This document shows positions 53,561 to 63,323 of a DNA stretch of 64,000 nucleotides, in pieces. Within the stretch, counting starts at the first letter, position 1, and every line of letters begins with the position of its first letter. Below the pieces are notes generated by a model. The model searched no databases and was not told the DNA's origin. It worked only from the letters and a program-made list of their open reading frames with translations. The translations under genes were made by a program, and so were the position numbers. The DNA is from Hyphococcus sp. (lineage in GTDB: Bacteria > Pseudomonadota > Alphaproteobacteria > Caulobacterales > Parvularculaceae): the NCBI GenBank assembly GCA_028284345.1, contig JANQRY010000006.1, forward strand, positions 186,001 to 250,000, in the 5' to 3' direction.

Positions 53561-55711
53561 ATGAAATTTTGGATGCGTTCAACGTGCGCTGGACTTGCAC
53601 TGTCTGTGTACGGATTTAATGCTGCTGCGCAGGACGCAGCGCCGGCGGAAGGAAGCACGCGAGCGCTTGAGACCATCGTGGTCACAACGCAAAAGCGTGC
53701 TGAGAGCCTGGAAGATATTCCGATTGCGATTACGGCGCTCGGCGCGGCTTCGCTGGAACGCAATCAGGTCGAAAATTTCATCGATTTGAATGGATTGATT
53801 CCCAACGCTCAGTTCTCGGGCTCATTGGGGATTAATTCCGTTTTCCTGCGGGGTATCGGGACGGCGGCGCTTGGCATCGGCCCGGATGCAAGTATCGCAT
53901 TTCACAATAACGGCGTTTATATCGCGCGACCGAGGGTTCAGGCCGCTGCATTTATGGATGTAGAGCGCATCGAAGTCGTGCGGGGCCCGCAAGGCGACCT
54001 TTACGGTCGAAACGCGACCGGCGGATCGATCAATGTCATTTCGCGGTCGCCAGGCGAGGAAGTTGAGGCGAACGCGTCCGTATCATACGGCAATTACAAT
54101 ACGGTCGCTGTGCGAGGCGGCGTAGGCGGACCGCTTTCTGAGGGCGTTCGCGCGCGCATTGCCGGCATTTACAAATCGAACAACGGCTTCGGCGAGAATA
54201 TCGCGACAGGAAACCCTGTTGACCACACCGATGAGCACGGCGTTCGCGGCGCGCTGTCTTTTGATCTTCTGGATGACCGCTTAACCCTGGATGTGATCGG
54301 CGACTACTATCGTGCTGACGATTCAATCGGCGGCTGGCACTATTTTGGACAAGGCAACCCCGCTGTGCCCTTGGTCGCCACCTCACCCGCCTTTGGAGGC
54401 GTTATCGCCTCTGATATTCGGGATATCGCATCTGATCGCGACGCCAGCCGCGACTTCAGAGCTTATGGCGGCGCGGCCACGCTCACCTATGAGGCGACGG
54501 ACTCCATTACGCTTAGGTCAATCACCGGGTATCGGGAGTCCGATCTCCTTTATATGTCCGATCTGTCCGGCGGGACCGAGCTGGGCGTATTTATCGACAA
54601 CAGCGAAGAGCAAACGCAGTTAAGCCAGGAAATCCAGATGTTGGTCGATGGCGACCGCTGGAATCTCATTTTGGGCGGTTACTATTTCAACGAAAAAATT
54701 GACGGCTTCTCCCGTGCGCCGTTGTTCTTCTTCCCCGGCGCCACTTTTCTCCAAATCGGTACGGGTGAAACAGACGCCTACGCGGCCTTCGCTAATTTCA
54801 GCTACGATATAACCGATCAAATCAAGGTTATTGCGGGCCTGCGGTACAGCTACGAAGAGCGTTTTGCCGACGGGACATTTACCGTTGGAGCAGGCGGACC
54901 CTTTCCAACGGGCGGAATGGCGGATTGGGATTCTGTGACGCCGAGAGTGGTCGTCGAGTATCAACCCAATTCGGACCTCTTGCTCTATGCAAGCGTGTCC
55001 AAGGGTTTCAAAAGCGGCGGCTGGCTGATCGGCGCAACCGGCCCGGTGACGAACCCGGAAATTCTGTGGAGTTATGAAGTCGGCGCAAAAGTCACCGCTT
55101 TTGACGGGCGGGCGCAAGCCAACTTCGCCGCTTTCTATTATGATTATAGTGACTTGGTCGTCAGCCGTGTCGTCGGGCCCAATCTCATTCTGGAAAATGC
55201 GGCGGAAGCCACCAATCTGGGCGTTGAGCTCGAGCTCGCGGCGGCGGTCACCGACCAACTGACCGTCAACGCCACCTTTGGGTATCTCAACGCGGAGTAT
55301 GATGAATACAGCACGGCAAACCCGGTTTTCCTCGCGGACGGCGTACAGGATCTGGCGGGCAATAAACTGAGCAGCGCGCCCGAGTTTACCTATCGAATCG
55401 GGGCGGACTACACGGTTCCTCTCAATACCGGGGACTTGACGCTCAGCGCTGACTTCGCGGGCCAGTCAGAGGTGTTCTTCACGCCGTTTAATGAAGCGGC
55501 CGCCTCGCAAGGCGCTTACGGCATTCTGAATGCGCGTCTAAAATACACGACGCCGGATGAGAGATGGAGTGTCTCCGTTTTCGGTCGAAATCTGACCGAC
55601 AAGACGGTCATCCTCAATAACATCATCTCGGCGGGCTTTTTGGGCTTCCCGCGCCTGGGCACGCTCAACGACCCGCGTACCTACGGTGTGGAGATCGGCT
55701 TCAACTACTAA
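53561..55711 (+). CDS. TonB-dependent receptor (no STN domain)
   Basis: Signal peptide; ETIVVTTQKRAESLEDIPIAI; VERIEVVRGPQGDLYGRNATGGSINVISR; C-terminal beta strand GVEIGFNY. Confidence 0.95.
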   Translation: MKFWMRSTCAGLALSVYGFNAAAQDAAPAEGSTRALETIVVTTQKRAESLEDIPIAITALGAASLERNQVENFIDLNGLIPNAQFSGSLGINSVFLRGIGTAALGIGPDASIAFHNNGVYIARPRVQAAAFMDVERIEVVRGPQGDLYGRNATGGSINVISRSPGEEVEANASVSYGNYNTVAVRGGVGGPLSEGVRARIAGIYKSNNGFGENIATGNPVDHTDEHGVRGALSFDLLDDRLTLDVIGDYYRADDSIGGWHYFGQGNPAVPLVATSPAFGGVIASDIRDIASDRDASRDFRAYGGAATLTYEATDSITLRSITGYRESDLLYMSDLSGGTELGVFIDNSEEQTQLSQEIQMLVDGDRWNLILGGYYFNEKIDGFSRAPLFFFPGATFLQIGTGETDAYAAFANFSYDITDQIKVIAGLRYSYEERFADGTFTVGAGGPFPTGGMADWDSVTPRVVVEYQPNSDLLLYASVSKGFKSGGWLIGATGPVTNPEILWSYEVGAKVTAFDGRAQANFAAFYYDYSDLVVSRVVGPNLILENAAEATNLGVELELAAAVTDQLTVNATFGYLNAEYDEYSTANPVFLADGVQDLAGNKLSSAPEFTYRIGADYTVPLNTGDLTLSADFAGQSEVFFTPFNEAAASQGAYGILNARLKYTTPDERWSVSVFGRNLTDKTVILNNIISAGFLGFPRLGTLNDPRTYGVEIGFNY

Positions 55712-55762: not shown

Positions 55763-56078
55763 GCGCCGGGTGGAAATAGGAAATTGTAGCAGAAAATGCT
55801 AAGCGGCGCCCCGGGGCAGGGCGCCAGAATGAAAAAAGAACAGCTCGGAAAATCGTGAGACCCCCAATTTTTCCGCCTTTTATCGGGCTTTCTTGAAATT
55901 TGTCCCCCTGTTTCCGGGCGTTTTCCGGTCTCGAAAACAGCTGAGTGCTTCCCAAATTTTGTTCGTTTGGCTTGATTTCGCGGTACGAAAACAAAACGCG
56001 CGGGAATTGATCCGGGTTTTGACGCCTGAATACTCTCATGATTGAGGGGTTGTGCGTCAACGCCCGGAAGGGAGCGCG

Positions 56079-56654
56079 ATGTCCGGCAAGGACAACAAAA
56101 TCACGAATGCGTTCGTTGAATATCGGGACGTGCTCGTTCGGGCGCTGCTCAGGCTTTCCGTCCGGCCGTCAGATGTTGACGATATCCTGCAGGAAACGCT
56201 TGCGCGCACGCTTGAGGCGAATGAGCAGAAGCGGATTGATCATCCCAAGAGCTACCTCTTCACGGTTTCGCGCAACATTGTCTTCCGCGACCAGAAGCGT
56301 CAGTCCCGGGAGATTCAGTGGGAAATCGACGAAGCGGTTCTGGAATCCAACGACGCGCCCACTGACCGGGAGATTTATTACCGGCAGATGTTGGAAGCCT
56401 TTTGGAAGGCGATGGATTCCCTGCCGCAAAACCATCGACGGGCGATTTTGCTACGCCGCATCTACGGCCTGTCGCATAAGCAAATTGCAAAGAAAATGGG
56501 TCTTTCAGTGAACACGGTTGAGAAATATTTCGCGAAGGGCATCAAGCGTTGTCAGGATGTGATGTCCCGCCGGGGGTATGGGGTCGAATTTGTCGGGGAA
56601 AGGACGGTGAAACGATCTCATAAGGTAGACGGAAAAGGCGGCTCTAATGAGTAA
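56079..56654 (+). CDS. ECF sigma factor, FecI-like
   Basis: DVDDILQETLARTLE; HPKSYLFTVSRNIVFRDQKR; ILLRRIYGLSHKQIAKKMGLSVNTVEKYFAKGIKRC. Confidence 0.92.
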   Translation: MSGKDNKITNAFVEYRDVLVRALLRLSVRPSDVDDILQETLARTLEANEQKRIDHPKSYLFTVSRNIVFRDQKRQSREIQWEIDEAVLESNDAPTDREIYYRQMLEAFWKAMDSLPQNHRRAILLRRIYGLSHKQIAKKMGLSVNTVEKYFAKGIKRCQDVMSRRGYGVEFVGERTVKRSHKVDGKGGSNE

Positions 56655-57720
56655 CGAAAACGGCGTCGTATCCTTGCGGCCGACGGAAAACGAAACGCTT
56701 GAGGCTGCGGACTGGCTTGCAAAGCTGGATCGCGGCGATCTGACGGCGGAAGAGAAGGCGGCGTTTCGGCGCTGGCTGTCAGAAGACCCGCGCAACAAGG
56801 ACGCCATTAAAGACGCAGCATCCCTTTGGTTCGGGCTGAATGAGCCATTGAGCAGGCTCGGCGCGATGGATGTTCGAGCCGACCTCGGCGTGAAAGACGA
56901 CCTGTCGCCCCTGGCTGCCTTCGGCGGCGCCTTTGCGCGCCTTCGGACAGCTGCGTTCGCCGGCGTATTTTTCATGGTCGGCGTCGCCGTCGCGGCCTTC
57001 GTCATTATCAATAATCAGCCGTCTGTCGTCGACGGATATTATGCGACAACGATTGGAGAGACGAAGCGGGTCGCCCTTGAAGACGGCTCGGATGTTCATC
57101 TCAACACCAACAGTATCGTTGAACAAAGTTTTTCGCGCAAAGAACGCGCTGTTCGTCTGGTCGCCGGCGAGGCGATTTTTGACGTCGCGCATGACGAAAA
57201 GCGTCCCTTCGTCGTGTACGCTGCGGACGGCGTTATTCGGGCGATCGGAACCCGCTTTGCCGTTCGCATGGCCGACGACAGGGTCAGCGTTACCGTCACG
57301 GAGGGAAGGGTGGCCTTCCAACAGCGCACGGAAGCGATCGCTGGCGATGACGACGCCGCGCCTAGTGCGGCGCAAAAAACTTTTCCGGTGATCGTTGGAA
57401 AGGGCGAGGCGGCGGAAATCAGCCAGAATAAAACCGGAACGCCTCCTCAGGCGGTTTCCGCCGGCGAACTCGCCCAGCGCCTGTCATGGGCGCAAGGCAA
57501 GCTGATATTTTACGACAAGGACCTTCAAACCGTCGTCGACGAAGTCTCGCGATACACGGTGGTCGAAATTCTGATTTTGGATGAGGCGCTGAAAACGGAG
57601 AAAATCTCCGGGATTCTCGAAATCGGCGATGTTGACATGATGTTGGACGGTATTGAGGGGGCGCTGGGCGTCGAGGCGGACTGGATTTCATCAAATCTGG
57701 TGCATCTGACGGCCACATAA
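56647..57720 (+). CDS. FecR family anti-sigma/signal transducer
   Basis: DUF4880-like N-terminus (AADWLAKLDRGDLTAEEKAAFRRWLSEDPRN), TM, TTIGETKRVALEDGSDVHLNTNS; overlaps the sigma gene by 8 nt. Confidence 0.93.
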   Translation: MSNENGVVSLRPTENETLEAADWLAKLDRGDLTAEEKAAFRRWLSEDPRNKDAIKDAASLWFGLNEPLSRLGAMDVRADLGVKDDLSPLAAFGGAFARLRTAAFAGVFFMVGVAVAAFVIINNQPSVVDGYYATTIGETKRVALEDGSDVHLNTNSIVEQSFSRKERAVRLVAGEAIFDVAHDEKRPFVVYAADGVIRAIGTRFAVRMADDRVSVTVTEGRVAFQQRTEAIAGDDDAAPSAAQKTFPVIVGKGEAAEISQNKTGTPPQAVSAGELAQRLSWAQGKLIFYDKDLQTVVDEVSRYTVVEILILDEALKTEKISGILEIGDVDMMLDGIEGALGVEADWISSNLVHLTAT

Positions 57721-57743
57721 AATGTTCGAAGGGAGGGAAAAAT

Positions 57744-57809
57744 ATGACGGTAAAAAAAACGTCAAAAAAAATAGGCGGGTTTTCCACTGCGGCCGCTCTC
57801 ATGAGATAG
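57744..57809 (+). CDS. Putative 21-aa leader peptide upstream of FecA-like receptor
   Basis: ATG 57744: MTVKKTSKKIGGFSTAAALMR, stop TAG 57807-57809; strong SD GGGAGGG; contains two A8 runs. Confidence 0.4.
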   Translation: MTVKKTSKKIGGFSTAAALMR

Positions 57810-57819
57810 GTCGCAACGG

Positions 57820-60582
57820 ATGGATCATTCGAAGCAGCGACTGAGGGATAAAAAGAGGGGCGGAAGTGGCAAGCAATCTTGGATAGTATTGAGTGTTGTG
57901 ATTCTTCTAAGCAGTTTCGCAAATCATGCGGGTGCTGAAGAACACGAAACCAAGCGCTACACTTTATCCATTCCCGCCTCTGACATGGACCTCGCCCTGA
58001 TCGCGCTAGCGCGGGAAACGGGCAAGTCACTAGTCATTCCCTCAGAGGGTATAGCCGGCAAGCGCTCAAAGGCGCTTGACGGTTCATACACGCTGTCTGA
58101 AGCGCTTTCGATAATGCTTGAAAGCGCAAACCTCACCGGCGGCCTGACCGAAAGCGGGGTCATAACGATCTCGCAAAAAAATGGCGAAGGCCTAAACCGG
58201 GAGGAAGAAGTGAACAGCGGTAAGTTAAAAACGGGCTTATTGGCGGGCGTGTCGGCGTTTCTGTTTGGCGCCGGCGGCGCAGCAGCGCAGGACGCCGGAG
58301 CGGAGGACGCCGCCGAAAATCCGGTCTTGGCGTCATCGACCATCGTCGTGACGGCGCGGCGTCGGGCTGAATCGCTGCAGGATGTTCCTGTGTCGTTGGA
58401 GGTGGTCACCGGCGAATATCTGGCTGAAACCAACTCAAACACATTGATTGACCTCGCCTCGTTAAATCCCGCCTTGCGTGTCGTCGAAGGCGGCCGCAAC
58501 ACGGAACTGTTTATCCGCGGCACGGGTTCCGGCGAGAGCCAGGCCTTTGAACAATCCGTCGCCACCGTTATCGACGATGTCTATCACGGGCGCTCGCGCA
58601 GCATCATCGGGCCTTTCTTCGACGTGCAGCGGATCGAAATCCTGAAAGGTCCGCAAACGACCTATTTCGGTGCGAACGCCATCGCCGGCGCCCTGAACAT
58701 CGTCACCAAAAAGCCGTCAAACGAGTTTGAGGGCTATATTCGCGGGCTGATCTCTCCGAAATCGGGCGAAACCAGAGGCGAAAACGGCGGTCAATACGCG
58801 ATTGAGGGCGCCGTCAATGCGCCGCTCTCGGACGATCTCGCGCTGCGGATTGCGGCGACCCATAACGGGCATGATGGCTACTTTTTCGACGTTGTGTCAG
58901 GCGAGACAGGGCCGAAAGACGAGCGCACCGCGGTTCGCGCGACGCTTCGCTACAACCCCGATGACCGGCTGGACGTTACGCTCAAGGGCGAATGGAGCAA
59001 GGCCGATATGAATGCGGGCCTGGCGACGGTTTATGAGCCTTGCCCGCCGGATCCGGCCTTTGGCCCCGGAGGGGCCGGATTCTTTTGCGGCCTCGCGCTT
59101 GGTACAGGCGCGCCGGTCGGCATCGAAAACCATCAATTCGCTGTGACGCCGGGGTCATTCCGTCGGCTGGACAAATATGAGGCCGCGCTCAACATTGATT
59201 ACGACCTCGGCTTTGCAACCCTGACCTCCACAACGGGCTATTACGAGTTTGATCTCGACCTCGAGATCGATACCGATATTCTGGCGCCGAACCTGTTTTC
59301 GGTTGGCGCGCCTGAACAGTCCAGTCAGTTCAGTCAGGAACTGCGCTTAACGTCCGAAACCGGCGGAGCCATAGAATACATCGCTGGCCTCTATTTTCAG
59401 AACGAGGACATGAGCACGCAGCAACCGGCCAGGTTCAACTTTTTGGACTCGGTAATTGCAGGCATTCCGCCCCTGACGCCCCTGGTGCCGTTGCTTCCGC
59501 TCGGTCAGGTGATTACCGCCGATCAGACAACCAACACCTATTCGGCGTTTGCCGCGGTGACCTGGAACGCAATGGATGATTTCAGGGTCACGGGCAGCCT
59601 GCGCGGTTCTATCGTCGACAAGGAGTTTGACTGGTCGCTTTACTACGGGACGGCGGCGGAGCCCTTTGGCGAGATCGTTCGGGACGACGCGTTGAACTTC
59701 GCGGCCTTGATCCTCGCGCTCGAGGGAACCCCGGGCATGCTTTCGCTTGATCGCAACGACAAAGGGCTGATGCCGGGCGTGCGGCTGGAATATGACGCCT
59801 TTGACGATGCGATGGTGTATTTCGCCTTCACGCGCGGTTTCAAGGCCGGCGGTTTCAATGTGGCGGAGACGTCGGCGATCCCCGCGAACTTCGGTTTCAA
59901 TCCGGAATTTGTGAACGCCTACGAAGTGGGCCTCAAAAGCCAGTTTTTTGATCGCAGAGTACGGGTTAATCTCGCGCTCTTCCGAAACGATTTTTCCGAT
60001 CTTCAGGTGTCGTTTTCGGACCCGGGCGGCGGCGGTTTCAACAACGTCATCAGCAACGCCGCCCAATCGCGATCCCAGGGGCTGGAGCTGGAGGCCGAGT
60101 GGGCGGTCAACGAGTTCTTCCGCCTTTCCACGGCGTTTACGGCGCTTGATTCCGAATATGTCAGCTACGAAGGCGCGAACCCAACCGAAGCGCAACAGCT
60201 GGCCGGCCTGACGACCCAGGATCTAAGCGGCGTTCGCACGCCGAACGCGCCGGAGTTTAGCGGCAATGTGACAGGCACGTTCACCGTTCCCGTATTCGGA
60301 GACTTTGAACTCGTCGGCCAGGGAATCGGTATTTTCTCGACAGAGTATAATATCAGGTCGACAATTGATCCGCTCACCGTGCAGCCGGGCTATATGCGCG
60401 TCGACGCCAGAATTACCTTCAGACCGGAAGATGGTCCGTGGGCGTTTGATGTGATTGGCAAGAACCTGAACAATCAGACCATACGGATCTGGACGACCAC
60501 TGGCGCGACGACGGAAGGCGTGTTTGTGATGAACCGCGTCCCTTACAGGAATATCGCGTTCCAGCTTCGCTATGACTTCTAG
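57820..60582 (+). CDS. TonB-dependent receptor with N-terminal STN signalling domain (FecA-like)
   Basis: Signal peptide; STN region YTLSIPASDMDLALIALARETGKSLVIPSEGIAGKRSKALDGSYTLSEALSIML; SSTIVVTARRRAESLQDVPVSL; C-terminal NIAFQLRYDF. Confidence 0.94.
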   Translation: MDHSKQRLRDKKRGGSGKQSWIVLSVVILLSSFANHAGAEEHETKRYTLSIPASDMDLALIALARETGKSLVIPSEGIAGKRSKALDGSYTLSEALSIMLESANLTGGLTESGVITISQKNGEGLNREEEVNSGKLKTGLLAGVSAFLFGAGGAAAQDAGAEDAAENPVLASSTIVVTARRRAESLQDVPVSLEVVTGEYLAETNSNTLIDLASLNPALRVVEGGRNTELFIRGTGSGESQAFEQSVATVIDDVYHGRSRSIIGPFFDVQRIEILKGPQTTYFGANAIAGALNIVTKKPSNEFEGYIRGLISPKSGETRGENGGQYAIEGAVNAPLSDDLALRIAATHNGHDGYFFDVVSGETGPKDERTAVRATLRYNPDDRLDVTLKGEWSKADMNAGLATVYEPCPPDPAFGPGGAGFFCGLALGTGAPVGIENHQFAVTPGSFRRLDKYEAALNIDYDLGFATLTSTTGYYEFDLDLEIDTDILAPNLFSVGAPEQSSQFSQELRLTSETGGAIEYIAGLYFQNEDMSTQQPARFNFLDSVIAGIPPLTPLVPLLPLGQVITADQTTNTYSAFAAVTWNAMDDFRVTGSLRGSIVDKEFDWSLYYGTAAEPFGEIVRDDALNFAALILALEGTPGMLSLDRNDKGLMPGVRLEYDAFDDAMVYFAFTRGFKAGGFNVAETSAIPANFGFNPEFVNAYEVGLKSQFFDRRVRVNLALFRNDFSDLQVSFSDPGGGGFNNVISNAAQSRSQGLELEAEWAVNEFFRLSTAFTALDSEYVSYEGANPTEAQQLAGLTTQDLSGVRTPNAPEFSGNVTGTFTVPVFGDFELVGQGIGIFSTEYNIRSTIDPLTVQPGYMRVDARITFRPEDGPWAFDVIGKNLNNQTIRIWTTTGATTEGVFVMNRVPYRNIAFQLRYDF

Positions 60583-60666
60583 AGCCTGATGCGAGGGGCG
60601 ATGCGGCGCGCGCGGCATCGCCTCCGTTCGGGCCCGTCGGCGCCGGTATCCTGAAGGAGGAGAAGC

Positions 60667-61188
60667 ATGTCGCAAGTTCTCGAAGAGGAAAAATCGTCGA
60701 AACCAGCCGCCACGCCGCAACCGTCCAACGTTCTGACTTGCGCGACGCGCGGGTCCGTCACGATTAACTGCCCGGTCGAATTTGTCTGGCAGGTCTTCAT
60801 CGACTTCCCGAAATGGTCCGTGACCGTCAAGAAGGCGGAATTGGTGAAGGGCGAGTGGGACAAGGAGGGCGGGGTGGTTCTGGTCACCAAGCAGGACGAT
60901 GTCGGCCTGCAGCCCATGCTTATTGAGAACCTGCGGGTCAAACCGCACACGCAGCTCGTCTACAAAGTCGACTCCAAGGACGGCGATCAGGTGCGCGGGT
61001 TTCTCGACGTGACCTTTCAGGACCTCGGCGACAGGACGCAGGTGACCTATAGCAACTACGTCACCTACACGAATGTGTTCGAGTCGCTGAGCCAGTGCCA
61101 TGGCGACGCCGCGGATCGGGAGATGGAGGAGAATTTCCTCACGCTCTACAAGGATTACGCCGAAAAGACGTATGCGGAACGCGGCTAG
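60667..61188 (+). CDS. SRPBCC/START-like family protein
   Basis: GSVTINCPVEFVWQVFIDFPKWSVTVKKAELVKGEWDKEGGVVLVT...; SD AAGGAGGAGAAGC. Confidence 0.75.
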   Translation: MSQVLEEEKSSKPAATPQPSNVLTCATRGSVTINCPVEFVWQVFIDFPKWSVTVKKAELVKGEWDKEGGVVLVTKQDDVGLQPMLIENLRVKPHTQLVYKVDSKDGDQVRGFLDVTFQDLGDRTQVTYSNYVTYTNVFESLSQCHGDAADREMEENFLTLYKDYAEKTYAERG

Positions 61189-61278
61189 ACCCGGGCCGCC
61201 CCGGGTCCCGTCGCTGCGCCGGAATTCATGCGCGTTGTCAGTTCGGAACAACAGGCGGCGATTGCCGGCGAGGCGCCG

Positions 61279-61902
61279 CTAAACGCCGCCGACGTTTTCG
61301 TCGTTGACGTGCAAGATAACCTCTTTGGGGGTCGCCTTTTGAACGGTCTGCCCCGCTATGCATGCATTTTCTGCGGCGCGAATAAAGGACTTCAGCTTAT
61401 CAAGCGGTTCCGGGCTGTCGATAAAAACATGGGTTTCGAAAAAATCCGCTCCAGCCGCAACATTATCCACATCATCTCGACCACTGTCTTCGATAGACAA
61501 CGAGGTGGCGTACCGCGCCCGCTGTTCGACCCGCATGTTGTCAATTTTCAGGTTTTGCCTTCTGGCGAGGATTGTGATGTGGGTCATCAGACAGAAAACA
61601 ACGCCTACGGAAAAATACATCAGAGGAGACGGCGCCGAATCGAAACCGCCGCCTGTGACGCCTTCATCGGAGATAATTTCGAACACGCCCCAGCCCGGCA
61701 CATTTGTGGAAACGCGCGCGCGCTTTAGGAGTGCGCCCTCCAGCATACTCTCCGCAACGACATCAAGATCGAAATTCAGCTTTTCGCCGGGCTTTGCTTT
61801 TTTGAAGGGAACCGCCTCGAAGGCTTTTGGCGCTGCAGAATCTGGCGTTTTCTGCACAATCGTGTTGTCGTTCATCTCCCATTTGACAGTCGTCATCTGC
61901 AC
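61279..61902 (-). CDS. OsmC-like family protein
   Basis: GGGFDSAPSPLMYFSVGVVFCLMTHITILARRQNLKIDNMRVEQRARY and second Cys segment AAENACIAGQTV. Confidence 0.75.
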   Translation of the reverse strand: MQMTTVKWEMNDNTIVQKTPDSAAPKAFEAVPFKKAKPGEKLNFDLDVVAESMLEGALLKRARVSTNVPGWGVFEIISDEGVTGGGFDSAPSPLMYFSVGVVFCLMTHITILARRQNLKIDNMRVEQRARYATSLSIEDSGRDDVDNVAAGADFFETHVFIDSPEPLDKLKSFIRAAENACIAGQTVQKATPKEVILHVNDENVGGV

Positions 61903-62357
61903 ATATTCCTTTTTCTGTTACGCGTTAAAGAGAGCGATTTGGCCTCAGGCAATTCGACTCTGAAGGGGGCGGAAATCATGCGGCGGCGCGATGCCGGAAA
62001 GCGAGGCGGTTCCCATCGTCCGGCCTGTCAGAGCCTCAAGCAATCAATTTCAACCTCTGGGAATGATCTAACGTAATGAGCGACGGGGCGCTTTCAAAAT
62101 AAACATAAAGTATGTTATGAGTCAAATGACGAGCCTTGTCGCCAATACAAGCGCCAAACTCGTCTACGAACTGGTTTTTGTACGGAACAAATGGGGTTCC
62201 AGCGGGTTTTAAGCGGGCAAGTACATTTGAAGCCGATGAAATTGGAAACGATCGATGCTCGTTCGGTTGCGCTTCCGCGAACGCCGCCCGAGTCGTCGAT
62301 CTGCAAATTAACGTGAGCGCGCGCAATGCGATTGGGCGACCGAATTGATAAAGGAGA

Positions 62358-63323
62358 ATGCTAGCGATGCAGGAAATTGACAGCCTGGCGAGAGAAACGC
62401 GCGGGACGCTTGGATATGCCGATGACGGCGTCGCCGGGGCTTCAGGCGCGCCTCTGCGATATGAGCTTTTTCATAGCGCGAAATCGATCTGCTCGCAGAA
62501 AGTACGCGCCGTTCTCGCGCATCACGAAATTCCATATCTCGACAGAGAGATGGACGTGATGAAAGGGGATAATTTTACGCCGAGCTATGTGCATTTGCGT
62601 CTGCTGGGCTGCGAACGTATCGGGGCGCCGTTGGCGAAGTCCCATAAGGGCAGCACATCGGTAAAATCAGCGGGGTGCGATCCGTGTGTGGTCCCGACAT
62701 TGATCGATTGGGAACAGAATGCGGTGCTCGTCGATTCCAAACGGATTTGTCTTGAGTTGGATGAAACGGTTGCTGAAGAAAACAAGCTCATGCCGAAGGC
62801 GCTCGCCGACGACATCAGTCGGGAACTGGAACATGTTGATGATCTGCCCAATGTTCAAATGCTGTTGGCGAAGGCCCCTGGGGGCGTCGACACCAACGTC
62901 GCCAAGCTTGGTCTTAACAGCGGAATTTACACGGGGAGCAGAATAGAGTTTTGTAGGCGTTTCATGGAGAAGTCCGCCGACGACCCCCGCCTGATGGAGG
63001 CTTATTCCGCTAAGATCGACAAAGAGAGCTGCGCGGCGAGCGAGCTGTTCAGCGATCAGGCTGTGGAGATCGCCTATGACGTCGCGGAAAACGCTTGCGG
63101 CGAACTTGAGAAGAAACTCGCGAAGCGTGGTTCCGCATGGCTGTTCGGCGACAAGGTCACGATGGCCGATGTCTTCTGGGGAATAGAGCTGTTGCGGTTT
63201 AGGAACCTGGGCACGGCGTCGTTCTGGGACGACGGGCGTCTTCCACATGTCGCGCACTATGTGAGCGCTGTGTCGGCGCTTCCGTCGATCAGAAAAGCGA
63301 CAATGGGAGACGCGCTTTTTTGA
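62358..63323 (+). CDS. Glutathione S-transferase family protein resembling LinD/PcpC-type reductive dehalogenases
   Basis: YELFHSAKSICSQKVRAVLAHHEIPY (GST N-domain with Ser/Cys), CDPCVVPTLIDWEQNAVLVDSKRICLEL, WLFGDKVTMADVFWGIELLRFRNLG. Confidence 0.75.
   Translation: MLAMQEIDSLARETRGTLGYADDGVAGASGAPLRYELFHSAKSICSQKVRAVLAHHEIPYLDREMDVMKGDNFTPSYVHLRLLGCERIGAPLAKSHKGSTSVKSAGCDPCVVPTLIDWEQNAVLVDSKRICLELDETVAEENKLMPKALADDISRELEHVDDLPNVQMLLAKAPGGVDTNVAKLGLNSGIYTGSRIEFCRRFMEKSADDPRLMEAYSAKIDKESCAASELFSDQAVEIAYDVAENACGELEKKLAKRGSAWLFGDKVTMADVFWGIELLRFRNLGTASFWDDGRLPHVAHYVSAVSALPSIRKATMGDALF

Follow-up and report, generated by a model that had tools for sequence, protein, structure and literature searches.

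The window, as we call the whole stretch of 64,000 nucleotides analysed here (Hyphococcus sp., contig JANQRY010000006.1), carries on its forward strand the genes for a FecI-type sigma factor and a FecR regulator and, immediately 3' of these, an open reading frame of 920 codons for a TonB-dependent receptor. The features of the locus are:

56052-56654, forward strand: FecI-type ECF sigma factor, 200 aa, GTG start (Pfam Sigma70_r2/r4_2)
56647-57720, forward strand: FecR anti-sigma regulator, 357 aa (Pfam FecR and DUF4880, above cut-off)
57777-57816, forward strand: promoter-like block, recognized by eye, of GGGTTTT (57777-57783), CGCTCTC (57794-57800) and GGTCGCAA (57809-57816)
57820-60582, forward strand: TonB-dependent transducer gene of the order STN, SP2, plug, barrel, 920 aa
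57820-57936, forward strand: predicted signal peptide 1 (SP1), residues 1-39, ending in WIVLSVVILLSSFANHAGA
57952-58179, forward strand: STN signalling domain, about residues 45-120 (Pfam PF07660; PDB 2a02)
58199-58204, forward strand: internal Shine-Dalgarno (SD) sequence GGGAGG, duplex dG -10.3
58210-58212, forward strand: internal in-frame GTG, candidate start (Val131)
58210-58287, forward strand: predicted second signal peptide (SP2), residues 131-156, predicted cut between AAA and QD
58336-58356, forward strand: TonB-box-like STIVVTA, residues 173-179, assigned from its sequence and its position ahead of the plug
58375-58692, forward strand: plug domain, residues 186-291 (Pfam PF07715, above cut-off)
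59143-60441, forward strand: β-barrel match, residues 442-874 (Pfam PF00593, above cut-off); the barrel extends to 60579

An exported N-terminal STN domain, a plug and barrel, and adjacent genes for an ECF sigma factor and FecR are traits of FecA-type transducers, and the gene is predicted to encode a nutrient-sensing outer-membrane receptor in a FecI-FecR-FecA-type cell-surface signalling locus. The match of PF07660 to residues 70-120 (26.4 bits) is slightly below the curated cut-off of 28.4, and the solved signalling domain of PupA (2a02) aligns with the window STN at an E-value of 1.1e-8 (phmmer). The NCBIfam FecI models match the sigma factor partially and below their own cut-offs. Orthology to the ferric dicitrate receptor FecA was not found with the NCBIfam model NF041676, which scored 30.5 bits against a cut-off of 1100, with its best stretch confined to residues 26-122. 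The surroundings, with a second, STN-less receptor upstream of fecI (53561-55711) and START/SRPBCC-like, OsmC-like and glutathione-S-transferase-like proteins downstream (60667-63323), are not typical of iron citrate uptake.

The receptor gene seems to contain two beginnings. The ATG of SP1 at 57820 has a weak SD (dG -4.0). Behind the STN domain, GGGAGG is followed after a spacer of 5 nt by the GTG at 58210, which encodes the first residue of SP2 (VNSGKLKTGLLAGVSAFLFGAGGAAA, then QD). The preliminary description of this DNA had given the reading frame, SP1 and STN correctly, and the internal SD, its spacer and the in-frame GTG correctly to the base. It had also taken the internal segment for a complete second signal peptide, and this is borne out: the segment has an h-region hydropathy of 2.11, an n-region charge of +2 and an AxA site. 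In hydropathy and charge, SP2 cannot be told apart from signal peptides on STN-less receptors (mean hydropathy 2.15, charge +2.35), unlike segments from the body of the receptors (hydropathy 0.85). The TonB-box-like STIVVTA would be shared by both predicted products.

Ahead of the gene, the block at 57777-57816 may be the counterpart of a pattern in relatives, GG(G)TTT..CGTCT..GGTGTGAA, located about 140-160 nt upstream of STN. Six relatives (L126, L128, L130, L142, L125, L062) conserve GGCC-GGTGTGAA ... GTGCTGA(C/T)C ... GGGCC about 140 nt upstream of STN; GTCT-type boxes precede this DNA and its conservation is independent of reading frame. It could represent a FecI-type promoter, a short 5' leader capable of forming a hairpin, or both. 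Our first promoter guess, GGGAAAAAT-N16-CGTC, was dropped, as this type of pattern occurs in only 2 of 58 loci. A mini-ORF between fecR and the receptor gene (57744-57809, MTVKKTSKKIGGFSTAAALMR) has a very strong SD (dG -12.7) and two A8 tracts; we set it aside as a leader peptide or a frameshifted STN start because its frame differs from that of STN and because the promoter-like block that aligns with the relatives includes it or follows it. It is probably located inside or ahead of the promoter. An Rfam search of 56000-60700 gave no match.

Searches with the N-terminal 240 residues of the window receptor against 200 genomes of the order found STN followed by a second signal peptide in receptors of other genera and families. 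The residue at the head of SP2 was Met (ATG) or Val in 18/18 of these first-seen homologues, all 12 valines being encoded by GTG, compared with a GTG share of 27% among Val codons overall, and an in-frame SD preceded this codon in 18/18. A profile (A1) run against 398 genomes of the order yielded about 53 full-length STN and SP2 matches in about 40 genomes. Full-length matches were rare in a profile search of 289 genomes of the class, where most STN receptors matched over STN only; a phylum-wide search gave more cases outside the class, with the Met conserved and a weak SD. None of the full-length matches listed had a stop codon between STN and SP2.

We collected 58 non-redundant SP2-bearing STN receptors (<85% identity) from several alphaproteobacterial families, with named loci including Parvularculaceae, Marinicaulis and Robiginitomaculum MAGs, and from a few Gammaproteobacteria (Colwellia sp. 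1_MG-2023, an Exilibacterium MAG and a Woeseiaceae MAG), in which the SDs are weaker. Many of the genomes sampled are metagenome assemblies. In one member, L157, no ATG, GTG or TTG lies between the opening of the ORF and SP1, though SP1 and STN are conserved, which may reflect an atypical start codon or faulty assembly. In another (L185, 4861-5722), the frame of the cassette receptor breaks after 287 aa and the remaining barrel is in a separate ORF, possibly a decayed gene or a sequencing error. Among short STN ORFs we looked for split versions of the family, with STN and receptor as separate genes, and found none; the short ORFs were stand-alone STN proteins or classical STN receptors. Two of the former (L198, 4431-5091; L199, 4685-5351) are exported proteins of about 220 aa with a TonB-like C-terminal part, next to a second short TonB-like ORF.

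FecR is encoded directly upstream in 55/58 and FecI in 53/58 of the SP2 genes. The same order also has FecIR-linked STN receptors with ordinary linkers and no SP2 (FecR in 28/31), so the internal hydrophobic segment is not a linker common to all homologues; wherever SP2 exists, predicted initiation signals exist too. FecIR linkage was rejected as an explanation for SP2, being equally frequent without it (28/31) and with it (53/57). The only other STN match of profile A1 in the window genome (L195, G000:C5:532988) is FecIR-linked, has an ordinary linker and lacks SP2; both receptor designs therefore coexist in one cell. Since FecIR-linked receptors without SP2 exist, a second product is not essential to such signalling.

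For each of the 58 genes we scored the best SD before an ATG or GTG within the 21 codons that precede the SP2 core, and applied the same measure to 11,400 random windows in the same receptors. The first codon of SP2 is ATG or GTG in 58/58 genes. With energies computed for a generic anti-SD, the median SD at the SP2 start was -10.3 kcal/mol (<= -6 in 91%, <= -8 in 67%, <= -10 in 55%), against a median of 0 in the controls (3.9%, 0.8% and 0.17%), where at least half of the windows have no usable ATG or GTG. The linkers of 32 STN receptors without SP2 gave 16%, 3% and 3% at these thresholds. Genes found after the hypothesis had been formed (41) agreed in these signals with the 17 seen first. In 48/57 genes the best SD of any upstream (SP1) start was weaker than the internal one.

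The signal extends to the level of nucleotides. When the six upstream codons were resampled synonymously, the expected SD was -5.9 and the observed one -9.1, stronger than expected in 54/57 genes (p 2e-10), and control codons showed no such excess. Around the internal start (-30 to +30), the mRNA folds far less than it does at other places in the genes (-8.7 vs -14.7 kcal/mol, p 2e-18). The lysine-rich n-region could account for part of these codon and structure effects. SP2 cores were located by a simple hydropathy rule, which in its first form misplaced the core in L151, L153, L156 and L158; the SD counts (for the 58 genes and for 17 vs 41) used an anchored rule, whereas the folding and synonymous tests kept the first picks, with 3/57 positions misplaced, which weakens rather than favours their results. 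The strength of an SD inside a translated ORF does not prove that the start is used.

The history of these elements was traced by correlating pairwise similarities. Those of SP2 follow STN (Mantel 0.27, p 0.0005, 52 genes) and not the plug (Mantel 0.04, p 0.15, 52 genes), though SP2 adjoins both. STN and plug are uncorrelated (Mantel 0.03, p 0.23), as are STN and barrel, while plug and barrel agree (Mantel 0.71). As SP2 follows STN and STN and barrel are uncorrelated, the restart is part of a FecI-FecR-STN-SP2 cassette that shuffles, not a leftover of the receptor. The earlier proposal that STN was fused in front of a pre-existing receptor that kept its own signal peptide is therefore unsupported as a general history, SP2 tracking STN and not the plug.

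Individual loci have the same character. The nearest cassette to that of the window, L124, is 60% identical in FecI, 43% in FecR and 53% in STN-SP2, with plug and barrel at only 26%; L126 and L165 have a window-like cassette and receptors without convincing relationship to that of the window. Judging from these comparisons, SD, start and SP2 travel with the FecI-FecR-STN cassette and have been joined to many unrelated receptors. Four loci (L141, L143, L175, L184) have the cassette ahead of receptors unrelated to the window receptor that carry an extra N-terminal domain, resembling by eye the carboxypeptidase regulatory fold.

The anatomy, its recurrence, the conserved initiation signals, the unbroken frame and the shuffling of the cassette can all be read in the DNA. 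We infer from them the use of both starts, the arrival of both products at the outer membrane and the purpose of the arrangement. Given the recurrence of the restart in 58 genes, a single gene probably supplies a signalling receptor as well as a plain transporter, and the absence of a stop between STN and SP2 in the full-length matches listed indicates that the long form is also kept. The window gene, with its two starts, thus quite probably yields a full signalling transducer and an STN-less transporter. That one gene may give two exported products had been suggested in the preliminary description; the SD, the ATG or GTG, the open mRNA, the nucleotide-level excess and the unbroken frame argue strongly for it, all of them at the level of sequence.

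In the mechanism we propose, the SD-poor start at 57820 would give the full transducer, consisting of SP1, STN, SP2 as a linker, TonB box, plug and barrel. Ribosomes starting independently at GTG 58210, under the drive of GGGAGG, would produce a second precursor; SP2 would export it as a receptor that lacks STN, binds and imports the ligand and cannot touch FecR. The ratio of the starts would set the amount of signalling domain per transporter, and induction of the receptor would then avoid flooding FecR with STN. In FecA, loss of the signalling domain leaves transport intact and ends regulation (Kim et al. 1997, as quoted in PMC9249621), and an excess of free signalling domain blocks induction (PMC9249621).

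As the main alternative, SP2 could be a processing site in a polyprotein: the long form would be translated through, and signal peptidase I would cut it at SP2 while it is exported. The results would be a receptor and a periplasmic STN, either free or tethered to a membrane, with the internal start secondary or only topping up the receptor. In most members SP2 retains an A-x-A motif for cleavage, followed by Q, E or D, and the two receptor bands of Pseudomonas aeruginosa FoxA fit removal of the signalling domain, which when free protects FoxR (PMC11637429). However, a mere processing site needs no SD, no first codon restricted to ATG or GTG and no open mRNA, all of which are conserved, and after export driven by SP1, SP2 would presumably have the wrong topology for easy cleavage by signal peptidase; we consider this course unlikely. 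A doubtful further possibility is that the STN-SP2 unit is an encoded separator, in which the second start gives the STN-less receptor, the long form is in addition cleaved at SP2 by signal peptidase, and STN guards FecR as a free or inner-membrane-tethered periplasmic protein.

Two other accounts dispense with one of the products. If receptors with their own start and signal peptide had been joined to STN cassettes, the internal start and SP2 would be unused leftovers; the great diversity of the receptors behind the cassette and, among the matches listed, the lack of STN in the closest barrel relatives of the window would suit this. Yet it is STN that SP2 follows, not the receptor, and the signals are still present where STN identity is down to 25-45%, in two classes and with an excess at the nucleotide level, which makes such a relic very improbable. 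Finally, only the short form might matter, the upstream STN frame being untranslated or a separate product, as the SD-poor upstream start and the lack of a usual start codon in L157 might suggest; with SP1 and STN conserved at the protein level, FecI-FecR directly upstream and no stop between STN and SP2 among the matches listed, we give this almost no credence.

Signalling receptors are assumed to be single polypeptides for transport and signalling. Transducers of the FecA, PupA, PupB, FpvA and FoxA type share with the window receptor the order of signal peptide, STN, TonB box, plug and barrel and the sigma and anti-sigma genes directly upstream, and the window STN aligns with that of PupA. 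The window receptor differs from them between STN and the TonB box: it has a predicted second signal peptide there and a candidate in-frame start driven by an SD, whereas classical transducers carry a plain linker (32 receptors without SP2 were sampled). Two in-frame starts occur in other bacterial genes, such as infB, clpB and cheA, in which an internal SD and start codon yield a shorter product with the same C-terminal part, as predicted for the window receptor. Their products are cytoplasmic, whereas in the window gene a predicted export signal follows each start and the restart travels with a regulatory cassette among unrelated receptors. We searched the open-access literature and found no publication on an internal start or a second signal peptide in TonB receptors.

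In P. aeruginosa, FoxA appears to lose its signalling domain, which protects the anti-sigma factor (PMC11637429). The outcome resembles that predicted here, with receptors with and without STN side by side; the cause proposed for FoxA is proteolysis, with CtpA suggested, whereas in the window gene the separation would be encoded as a second start and signal peptide. The FoxA study, a recent one, puts forward detachment of the signalling domain as a necessity and leaves open how the domain bridges the periplasm (PMC11637429). Were the encoded-separator reading true, it would settle for the SP2 family how cell-surface signalling bridges two membranes.

Returning to the two-start reading, automatic annotation of SP2 genes will pick one start and miss the other predicted product. 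The family offers natural systems in which silent mutations can separate signalling from transport. As a whole, it appears to use single genes to encode a receptor both with and without STN, and the module concerned can be placed before unrelated receptors.
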